Below are positions 17,272 to 20,012 of a stretch of 64,000 bases of DNA, in pieces. This DNA is from Mesorhizobium sp. 65-26 (GTDB taxonomy: Bacteria > Pseudomonadota > Alphaproteobacteria > Rhizobiales > Rhizobiaceae). The notes below the pieces were generated by a model that was given only the letters and a program-made list of their open reading frames with translations, had not been told where the DNA came from and ran no database searches. The translations under genes and the position numbers were made by a program. Every line of letters starts with the position of its first letter. Position 1 is the first letter of the stretch. The stretch covers positions 755,546 through 819,545 of the forward strand of contig MKVL01000010.1 in NCBI GenBank assembly GCA_001899205.1, read 5' to 3'.

Positions 17272-18150
17272 TCAGGCCGCGAAGCGCGTGAGCAGCCAGC
17301 GGCGGAACTCTCGCTCGGCGTCGGTCAACCGACGCCCGGTCGGACGGGTCAGGAAATGTCCCGAGGTGCTGGTCAGTTCGAAGCCGGAAAGCGGCAGCAG
17401 CGTTTTGTCGGCGAGAGCCGCGTCGATAAGCGGCCGTGATCCCAGAAGGATGCCGGCGCCGGCCTTCGCGGCCTCCAGGGCGGCGACGAAACTGTCGAAG
17501 CGGTGCGCGCGGGCGGTGTGGCCGGCAAGGCCGGCGGCGGCGAACCATTCCGCCCACATCTCACGCGCGCCGGCAACGAGCAGCAGCGGGCGCGACGTCC
17601 AGTCCGGATCGACGGCCAATGCCGGGCTGGCGACCGGCAGCAGTCGCTCCACCGTCAGCCGATCGGCCTCGCGGCCGGAGAAGGCGCCGTTTCCGAAACG
17701 TATGTCGAGCACGCTTCCCGGCTCGTCATAGTCGGCGGGGCGATGGATGGTCACCACATCGAGGCGCAGGTGCGGAAAGTTGACCGCCAGGGCGGGCAAT
17801 GCCGGCACCAGCATCAGCAGGGCGAAGGAGATCGGCACCCTCAGCGTGACGGTCTGCACAGCGCGCGGCTCGAACAGCTCGCGGGTGCTGTTGCCGATGG
17901 TGGCGAAGGCCGACTGGATGTGAGGGAGGTAGGCGGCGCCTTCCGGCGACAAGGCGACTCCCCTTGCGAGGCGCGCGAAGAGGCGGACCTTGAGCCGTTC
18001 CTCCAGGAGGCGGATGTGCTGGCTGACGGCGGCTTGCGTGAGGCCGAGCTCGGTTGCCGCCGCGGTGAAGTTGGACAGCCTCGCGGCGGCCTCGAAACTG
18101 CGCAGCCAGTCGAGCGGAGGCAGGATGCCGGCGCTCCCTTTAGTCATCAT
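17272..18150 (-). CDS. LysR-family transcriptional regulator, divergent from the tmpA-like gene
   Basis: A 292-residue regulator of GcvA-like type: N-terminal winged helix LDWLRSFEAAARLSNFTAAA and LGLTQAAVSQHIRLLEERLK, then a substrate-binding fold from about residue 95. It is transcribed away from the oxygenase pair across a 111-bp interval that holds an ATAA-N6-TTAT repeat, the usual layout when a LysR protein activates the neighbouring operon. The inducer would then be the phosphonate or a breakdown product. Start chosen at the first of two adjacent ATGs. Confidence 0.9.
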   Translation of the reverse strand: MMTKGSAGILPPLDWLRSFEAAARLSNFTAAATELGLTQAAVSQHIRLLEERLKVRLFARLARGVALSPEGAAYLPHIQSAFATIGNSTRELFEPRAVQTVTLRVPISFALLMLVPALPALAVNFPHLRLDVVTIHRPADYDEPGSVLDIRFGNGAFSGREADRLTVERLLPVASPALAVDPDWTSRPLLLVAGAREMWAEWFAAAGLAGHTARAHRFDSFVAALEAAKAGAGILLGSRPLIDAALADKTLLPLSGFELTSTSGHFLTRPTGRRLTDAEREFRRWLLTRFAA

Positions 18151-18177
18151 GATTTTGTGGCCTTAGGCGCAAAAATG

Positions 18178-18191
18178 ATAATTTGATTTAT
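18178..18191. promoter_or_regulatory. Candidate LysR binding site (ATAA-N6-TTAT)
   Basis: ATAATTTGATTTAT is an inverted repeat with a 6-nt centre, lying 28 bp from the LysR start and about 70 bp from the tmpA-like start. Position and AT-richness fit a LysR recognition site in the divergent promoter; no second half-site is obvious. Confidence 0.4.
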
Positions 18192-18261
18192 GCCTTGGCC
18201 GGCCTCAGCATGCAACCGAAACCCGGCGCTGCCGGCGGTAACGATGAGACGGAGGCAAGCC

Positions 18262-19413
18262 ATGTTGACCGGCGCGGTGATCGGCGACGAAGGGCAGGTG
18301 ATCGAACTCGAATGGCGTGATGGGGCGCGTGCGCGCTTCCATGCCATGTGGCTGCGTGACAACGCGCTGGACGACAAGACGCGCAGCGCCGGCAACGGCC
18401 AGCGGCTGATCACCATCCTGGATATTCCGGCCGACACGAGGATCGGTTCGGCCATGGTCAAGGCGGGCGCGCTGGAAGTCGGCTTCGTGCCGGAGGGGAA
18501 GACGGTGACGTTTCCCGCGGCGTGGCTCCGGGATCACGCCTATGATCGCGCCGAGACGCGCCAGCCCGGTTGGACGGGAGAAACGGTGCAGCGCTGGACG
18601 AAGGCGACTATGCAGGATCGCGTGCCGCGCGCCAGCCTGGCGGCGGCGAGCCGCGACCGTTCCGTGCTCAGGCAATGGCTGGCGGCCGTGCGGGCCTACG
18701 GTTTTGCCGTGATGGACGGGGTACCTGCCGAATCCGGCGCGCTCTGCAAGGTGTCGGACCTGTTCGGCTATATCAGGGAAACCAATTACGGCCGCTGGTT
18801 CGAAGTGCGTGCCGAGGTCAATCCGAGCAACCTCGCCTACACCAATCTCGGCCTTCAGGCGCATACCGACAATCCCTATCGCGACCCCGTGCCGACGCTC
18901 CAGATCCTGTCCTGCATCGAGAACACGGTGGATGGTGGCGAATCCAGCGTCGTCGATGGCTTCGCTGTCGCCGCCGCGCTGCAGGCCGAAAATCCCGAAG
19001 GCTTTGGGCTGCTCAGTTCTTATGCCGCGCGCTTCGAATATGCCGGTTCCTCGGGCGTGCGGCTGCAGGCCAAGCGCCCGATGATCGAGCTCGGCCCTGA
19101 TGGCGAACTGATCTGCATCCGCTTCAACAACCGCTCGCTGGCGCCGGCCGTCGACGTGCCGTTCGCCGAGATGGGCAAGTACTATGCCGCCTACCGGCGC
19201 TTCGCCGAATTGATCGAGGACCCCGCGTTCGAGGTCACGTTCAAGCTGGAGGCCGGGCAGGCCTTTATCGTCGACAACACGCGCGTCATGCATGCGCGCA
19301 AGGCGTTTTCGGGCAGCGGCAAGCGCTGGCTGCAAGGCTGCTACGCCGACAAGGACGGGCTGCTGTCGACGCTGGCGGCGATCGAGCACGAATTCAAGGA
19401 GGCGGCGGAATGA
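18262..19413 (+). CDS. tmpA: TmpA-like Fe(II)/2-oxoglutarate dioxygenase (gamma-butyrobetaine hydroxylase superfamily)
   Basis: A 383-residue protein: N-terminal DUF971-like domain (to about 95) and a TauD/TfdA catalytic domain. Iron ligands are His201 and Asp203 (QAHTDNP) and His344 (RVMHARK); Arg355 is placed for 2-oxoglutarate. Such proteins are often called gamma-butyrobetaine hydroxylase, but the overlap (ATGA) with a PhnZ/TmpB-type HD oxygenase matches the tmpA-tmpB pair, where TmpA hydroxylates 2-(trimethylamino)ethylphosphonate at C1. The cysteines of the zinc site in typical butyrobetaine hydroxylases (C-x-C-x-x-C after LRDN) are absent: here [14 protein letters not shown]. Substrate is inferred from context; GGAGG supports the start. 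Confidence 0.75.
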
Positions 19414-20012
19414 AACCGGACGAGCTCAACACCGGCAACATCGTCGAATTCATCGCCGATATCTTCGAGCGGCGCGGCGCCGAATCCTATCTAGGCGAGC
19501 CCGTCACTATGTCTGAGCACATGCTGCAGGGCGCCTGGCTGGCCGAGCAGGAAGGCGCGCCCGACGAACTCGTCGCGGCGGCGCTGCTGCACGACATCGG
19601 CCACTACACCAGCGAGTTCGGCACCTATTCGCCCGATGATACCGAGGACAAGCACCATGACGAGGCGGGCGGTGACGTGCTCGCTCCCTTCTTCCCGCCC
19701 GTCATCGTGGAGTGCGTCAGGCTGCATGTCGCGGCCAAGCGCTATCTGTGCGCCACCGATCCCAGCTATTTCGGCAAGCTATCGCCGGCCTCGGTCCACA
19801 CGCTTTCCCTGCAGGGCGGCCCGATGAATGCCGAAGAGGTGGCGGAGTTCCGTGGCAACCCGTTTCACGAGGAGGCGGTGCGCGTCCGCATCTGGGACGA
19901 GGGCGGCAAGATCGCCGACATGAAAACGCGCGCTTTCCGCGACTACGTGCCGATGCTGCAAGGTGTGGTTAAGCGCTACGCCTACGAGAAGGCGATTCCG
20001 CAAGATCTCTGA
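19410..20012 (+). CDS. tmpB: TmpB/PhnZ-like HD-domain mixed-valent diiron oxygenase
   Basis: A 200-residue HD-fold protein. Metal ligands of the PhnZ type can be placed: His37, His61-Asp62 (LLHDIGH), His83 (KHHDEAGG), His106 ([10 protein letters not shown]) and Asp163. Tyr27 and Glu30 (SYLGEP) match the mobile active-site loop of PhnZ. The family oxidatively cleaves the C-P bond of 1-hydroxyphosphonates; after TmpA the products would be glycine betaine and phosphate. It overlaps the tmpA-like gene by 4 bases. Automatic pipelines usually call it an HD phosphohydrolase. Confidence 0.78.

Follow-up and report, generated by a model that had tools for sequence, protein, structure and literature searches.

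A probable TmpA/TmpB gene pair for oxidation of 2-(trimethylamino)ethylphosphonate next to a divergent LysR gene in Mesorhizobium sp. 65-26

The TmpA/TmpB pathway of 2-(trimethylamino)ethylphosphonate (TMAEP) degradation was reportedly described in 2019 and characterised in Leisingera. Here, we analyzed a related gene pair in a stretch of 64,000 nucleotides (the window, C10:755546-819545) of the 6.84-Mb genome of Mesorhizobium sp. 65-26, which is assembled in 42 contigs. The TMAEP pathway is already in print (PMC10574752, PMC8177086, PMC9296572, PMC11203657), and TmpA and TmpB are encoded by a two-gene operon (PMC10574752). The same order of reactions, hydroxylation followed by oxidative C-P cleavage, is followed by PhnY*/PhnZ, which act on 2-aminoethylphosphonate (AEP), and by GmPhnY/GmPhnZ, which act on methylphosphonate (PMC10574752, PMC8177086). 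DfmD, an enzyme of dehydrofosmidomycin biosynthesis, acts on TMAEP too (PMC9296572). The pair in our window is a further example of a known pathway and not a new system. Judging from the sequences, its products are very probably TmpA/TmpB orthologues, which would convert TMAEP to glycine betaine and phosphate under the control of a LysR switch. A previous sequence-only reading of this DNA had proposed the same or a sibling pathway, and the former is now supported by family models, identity to the solved enzymes, active-site residues, phylogeny and conserved pairing. The two genes are as follows:

18262..19413, plus strand: tmpA, 383 amino acids, predicted Fe(II)/2-oxoglutarate TMAEP hydroxylase
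19410..20012, plus strand: tmpB, 200 amino acids, predicted HD-domain mixed-valent diiron oxygenase for (R)-1-hydroxy-2-(trimethylamino)ethylphosphonate

The longest open reading frame (ORF) over tmpA begins at 18190, but the ATG at 18262 is the best candidate for its start, since relatives match the frame from residue 1 and the start codons of several of them align there, although the query of this search itself began at that ATG. The start of tmpB lies inside the end of tmpA, and the 4-bp overlap that had been read between the dioxygenase gene and the HD oxygenase gene is correct.

When the two proteins were compared with family models, TmpA passed the TMAEP dioxygenase model NF049936 with 562 bits (cut-off 400) and TmpB passed NF049941 with 329 bits (cut-off 300). 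With these scores and the dN/dS values given below, the identification is far beyond chance. Among solved structures, TmpA matched the Leisingera enzyme (6npb) with 495 bits, human gamma-butyrobetaine hydroxylase (BBOX) with 157 bits and DfmD with 123 bits, and its sequence identity was 60.5% to solved TmpA versus 27.5% to human BBOX. Similarly, TmpB matched solved TmpB (6npa) with 268 bits versus 105 bits for PhnZ (63.8% versus 35.4% identity), and it remained below the cut-offs of the Phn-HD model TIGR03276 (204.8 bits, cut-off 214.6) and of NF052439. The closest TmpA relatives among the matches listed were mostly from Mesorhizobium and shared not more than 88% identity. Compared with the enzymes of Leisingera caerulea (PDB 6NPB-6NPD for TmpA, 6NPA for TmpB), the window encodes the same enzymes with the same catalytic and substrate residues, and the difference lies in the host, which is of the Mesorhizobium type. 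The HD protein is also homologous to PhnZ, all ligands of which it has kept. PhnY*, in contrast, presumably belongs to another family of 2-oxoglutarate dioxygenases, whereas the window dioxygenase is of the TauD/BBOX type. DfmD (PDB 9J0J) is a distant relative that carries zinc cysteines, lacks the phosphonate-binding arginine at its column and catalyzes a biosynthetic rearrangement.

Inspection of the active sites gave a consistent picture. The iron ligands His201, Asp203 and His344 named by the sequence-only reading are all present in the 383-residue frame of TmpA, and the 2-oxoglutarate-binding arginine is R355, which aligns with R358 (chain index) of 6NPB. The aromatic positions Y176, Y193 and Y361, which by analogy with BBOX would form the trimethylammonium pocket, are also kept. 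The phosphonate ligands of TmpA are N187, N287 and R288 (PMC9296572), and these correspond in our alignment to N190, N290 and R291 with a constant offset of 3. Asn190 and Arg291 are invariant across the TmpA clade (49 of 49 rows), and Asn290 occurs in 43 rows (Ser in 4, Ala in 2). In TmpB, the diiron ligands H37, H61, D62, H83, H106 and D163 and the Y27/E30 loop align with those of solved TmpB and PhnZ, and this alignment bears out the earlier assignment to the PhnZ/TmpB-type HD oxygenases. The counterparts of the functional PhnZ residues H62, K108 and R158 are retained as well. Both the Y-x-x-E loop and the H...HD...H...H...D ligand motif have been described (PMC8177086), and with the loop and all diiron ligands in place we rejected an HD phosphohydrolase.

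The absence of the zinc cysteines of butyrobetaine hydroxylases had been regarded as unusual. Window TmpA indeed carries A, D and T at the three zinc-cysteine columns of human BBOX, but we rejected the view that this is unusual, since all 49 clade rows, among them solved TmpA, are free of cysteine at these three positions. The cysteines are present in the sibling proteins of loci L181-L183 and L103 (L numbers denote the loci compared), in DfmD and in a paralogue of the same genome (L188), and they are absent from the BBOX-like proteins of L179 and L180. Thus, they do not track the substrate, nor do they separate TmpA from butyrobetaine hydroxylases.

Two phylogenetic trees placed the window dioxygenase together with PDB 6NPB. 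In the first tree (72 proteins) both fell in a 100/100 clade of 49 sequences, and in the second (67 proteins), for which six plasmid proteins were added and eleven rows dropped, including the long-branch proteins DfmD and L188, in a 100/100 clade of 41. Beyond the TmpA clade the deep branches are long and their branching order is unsure. The gene pairing was equally well conserved. For neighborhood counts we used the best 80 of at least 580 confirmed relatives, and a tmpB homologue followed tmpA directly at all 80 of these genome loci, with estimated gaps of -10 to +2 bp (51 bp in L082). In the class sample, 18 of the 19 genomes with a TmpA above the cut-off, this genome included, had a tmpB homologue directly after it. 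One locus (L068) carries tmpAB on the same strand after phnGHI-J-KLMN of a C-P lyase operon, and this linkage is independent support for phosphonate use. Both genes are intact and under purifying selection (dN/dS against four relatives 0.11-0.18 for tmpA and 0.07-0.12 for tmpB). The pair extends the pathway known from Leisingera by a rhizobial branch that is well supported. Our literature search, which covered few subscription papers, found none that links Mesorhizobium to TmpA, TmpB, phosphonate catabolism or glycine betaine; given this scope, we make no claim that the pair is unreported.

A competing explanation would assign the dioxygenase to the carnitine pathway, as a gamma-butyrobetaine hydroxylase, and would make the HD protein an unrelated phosphohydrolase. 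The two groups share the fold family and the iron site, and window TmpA also passed the older gamma-butyrobetaine dioxygenase model TIGR02409 (509 bits, cut-off 414.75), which shows how a TmpA could be misnamed and that family scores alone mislead. However, this score is lower than that of the TmpA model and is overridden by the tree and the residues. In the column of Arg291, human BBOX has Ala, and the two BBOX-like proteins from the carnitine contexts of L179 and L180 have Phe, in a loop where the alignment shows a gap; all three BBOX rows lie outside the TmpA clade in both trees. Moreover, L179 (8742-14138) contains tmpA, tmpB, a BBOX-like gene, a beta-keto acid cleavage-like gene (assigned from its N-terminus) and a carnitine 3-dehydrogenase gene (707 bits, cut-off 592) as one run, which fits two separate jobs for the two dioxygenases. 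Two routes would thus converge there on glycine betaine, as follows from the logic of the carnitine and TMAEP pathways. L180 has a similar run, in which the dehydrogenase homologue was found by blastp, and both loci are of use as bacterial BBOX anchors. Since the HD protein retains its loop and ligands and follows tmpA throughout the relatives, we consider this explanation very improbable, and we rejected a carnitine-pathway enzyme on the basis of the residues, both trees and the L179 gene run. The phylogenetic check that the sequence-only reading had called for gave no clustering with carnitine-pathway BBOX, with human BBOX and context-placed bacterial genes as anchors. Six plasmid dioxygenases that we considered as candidate bacterial BBOX anchors had no clear carnitine gene cluster around them, except that one (L197) has a "3-keto-5-aminohexanoate cleavage" gene nearby.

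It is quite improbable, but less so, that the window encodes a sibling pair that carries out the same two-step chemistry on another aminophosphonate, such as AEP with no, one or two methyl groups or a longer quaternary compound. TMAEP is assigned as substrate by homology, and sibling clades (L181-L185, L103) keep the pairing while their dioxygenases diverge. Nevertheless, the window protein lies inside and not beside the clade of solved TmpA, the phosphonate ligands and the three tyrosines are kept, and TmpA is termed highly substrate-specific in PMC10574752. That the pair is a decaying or silent relic, as its patchy occurrence in the genus might suggest (41/119 sampled genomes without a TmpB match at E 1e-30), is barely credible for a pair with intact frames, the low dN/dS values given above and a promoter element whose core is exact in 60 of 71 promoters. 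Several observations weigh against the assignment as TmpA/TmpB orthologues. NF049936 also accepts zinc-cysteine siblings outside the TmpA clade (L181-L183 with 470-476 bits, and L184) and may thus over-call such proteins; together with the passing of TIGR02409 this means that family scores alone do not fix the substrate. An arginine at the Arg291 column is also found in siblings and among unpaired homologues, for example L124-L126, L130-L134, L104 and the L188 paralogue, so that the three BBOX rows are the only ones from which it sets TmpA apart; two of these rows have the local alignment gap, and apart from human BBOX these anchors were placed by gene context. L175 has a TmpA above the cut-off and no HD gene within 1.2 kb downstream. 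Finally, the pathway is patchy, since TmpB exceeded its cut-off in few genomes of the class sample (11/289) and of the phylum sample (14/398, all 14 in this class); in the genus it did so in 78 of the 119 sampled genomes. Even with these points, orthology with TmpA and TmpB is the reading we strongly favor.

Upstream of tmpA, the window contains the following regulatory features:

17272..18150, minus strand: lysR, 292 amino acids, divergent GcvA-like LysR regulator, presumed substrate-responsive switch of tmpAB
18151..18261: intergenic region of 111 bp between lysR and tmpA, divergent promoter region common to both genes
18176..18194: operator-like block TGATAATTTGATTTATGCC, putative LysR binding site

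The divergent LysR gene had already been recognized from the sequence alone, and its orientation agrees with that description. Its product has HTH_1 and LysR_substrate domains and scored 190 bits with the GcvA model, which is below the cut-off of 288. A LysR match was found upstream of tmpA at 71 of the 80 relative loci, and 70 of these had at least 150 bits and were divergent at promoter distance. We aligned the intergenic regions of these 70 loci and of the window (71 in total), and found a block with consensus arms ATAAT/ATTAT, which here is separated by 26 bp from the start of lysR and by 68 bp from that of tmpA. Its mean majority-base frequency was 0.91, whereas the remainder of the intergenic region had 0.62, the next best stretch of equal length 0.80 and the adjoining coding ends in these rows 0.67 and 0.76. 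The core ATAATTTGANTTAT was exact in 60 of the 71 promoters and had up to two mismatches in 63, while mononucleotide shuffles gave none; the exact count is inflated by relatedness, since most rows are from Mesorhizobium, and the consensus was scored on the same 71 rows from which it was derived. When we searched the whole genome for other genes that bear this operator, among them a co-regulated transporter, the window site was the only one within three mismatches, and it is single within the window as well. The simplest reading is that the block would be a local operator for the divergent LysR protein, and a concrete operator and regulator are at hand for testing how the pathway is switched on. 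A consensus scan of the window for Pho boxes gave 0 sites within three mismatches where 2.8 were expected by chance; this is weak evidence, which fits substrate-driven control without proving it. A scan of 18000-20300 with the sigma-70 consensus detected no promoter-like site between lysR and tmpA.

From these data we infer the following sequence of events. TmpA would use iron, 2-oxoglutarate and O2 to hydroxylate C1 of TMAEP, and TmpB, with its Fe2+/Fe3+ center and O2, would cleave the C-P bond to form glycine betaine and phosphate. Either the substrate or an intermediate is probably the signal for the LysR protein, which would act at the sole conserved operator between the genes. TMAEP would probably be imported by PhnCDE or by an ATP-binding cassette (ABC) importer of the betaine/choline type encoded elsewhere, and the glycine betaine may serve as osmolyte or be demethylated.

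The lack of an adjacent phosphonate transporter, which had also been called unusual, turned out to be ordinary among the relatives searched. We queried 80 genome loci, 20 class loci and the four plasmid loci L100-L103 by tblastn (E. coli phnD, proX and betT, plasmid choX; E 1e-6 or lower over no less than 40% of the query). The flanks reached about 10 kb at most and were smaller where contigs were short, and no PhnD, ProX, BetT or ChoX homologue was found in them near tmpAB. As positive control, the same phnD query recovered PhnD of the C-P lyase cluster of this genome, and the choX query matched only the locus from which it was taken, plasmid locus L104, where the HD protein does not resemble TmpB. 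ABC ATPases resembling proV or phnK (29-44% identity) occur in the flanks of L075, L079, L081, L101-L103, L172, L174, L177, L179 and L180, and they are generic subunits; the records label the flanking ABC genes as a biotin ECF cluster in L101 and as a peptide ABC cluster in L102. A complete PhnCDE system is encoded beside the C-P lyase genes on contig C38 (PhnC 310 bits, cut-off 266; PhnD 292, cut-off 261; two PhnE 240 and 246, cut-off 217). Moreover, the genome has nine OpuAC matches, four of them strong (166-190 bits), and ten genes with FAO_M, a domain of dimethylglycine and sarcosine dehydrogenases. The phnS2 model TIGR03261 had no match above its cut-off in this genome (best 155 bits, cut-off 392.75). 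Neither of the two points called unusual thus gives cause to expect another substrate, since solved TmpA has no zinc cysteines, the relatives searched have no adjacent transporter and PhnCDE is encoded elsewhere.

With these elements in hand, one may speculate about a substrate-induced route of soil rhizobia that operates independently of the phosphate supply from one LysR operator in about two thirds of the sampled genus. We consider this rather unlikely, but if true, a substantial and so far unrecognised source of TMAEP, or of a closely related quaternary aminophosphonate, would have to exist on land. Phosphonate esters or lipids might release the compound, and a hint in this direction is an alkaline-phosphatase-superfamily gene directly 3' of tmpB in two relatives. 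The products of these genes (L102:10739-11584, identified by PF01663, and L173:11452-12279, identified by 56% identity) might cleave esters of TMAEP and so set it free. In L081, a homologue (45%) is located on the opposite strand, about 2 kb from tmpAB.

Other recurrent neighbors were judged to be background. These are an isocitrate dehydrogenase gene, divergent in several LysR-less relatives (L066 was scanned), and a major facilitator superfamily gene after tmpB in L067, L070 and L076 (L070 was scanned), which recurs farther off in others.

Variants of the arrangement were seen among the more distant loci. The siblings L181, L182 and L183, all from one family, have pairs with a divergent LysR gene and an adjacent betB-like aldehyde dehydrogenase gene. 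On plasmid pF045_1 (L104:4531-11568), a gene for a TmpA-like protein (348 bits, cut-off 400) precedes one for an HD protein that is not TmpB-like (42 bits), and genes for a choline-binding protein, choline dehydrogenase and aldehyde dehydrogenase come next; possibly, this is a different oxygenase pair of quaternary-amine metabolism. In L186:6889-8580, a dioxygenase of the TmpA/BBOX type with zinc cysteines and an HD oxygenase of the TmpB/PhnZ type are joined in a single frame of 563 amino acids. In 16 genomes of its order, no second match was both full-length and uninterrupted, and the fusion may be rare or an assembly effect; it recalls the fungal PhoF fusion (PMC10574752). The paralogue in our own genome (L188:9099-10328, contig C23) is a second TauD/BBOX-like dioxygenase with a divergent GcvA-like LysR gene; it is below all three related cut-offs and has no HD partner within 1.2 kb downstream.

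Elsewhere in the window, positions 65-3168 carry modA and modC, molybdate transporter genes, which are the ABC genes about 15-18 kb from tmpAB. At 21598-23406, we found a gene for a flavin monooxygenase-like protein of 602 amino acids with an N-terminal SnoaL-like domain, which remained under every NCBIfam cut-off shown. Beside it, at 23655-25577, lies an ORF of 640 amino acids that by eye resembles a sigma-54 activator.

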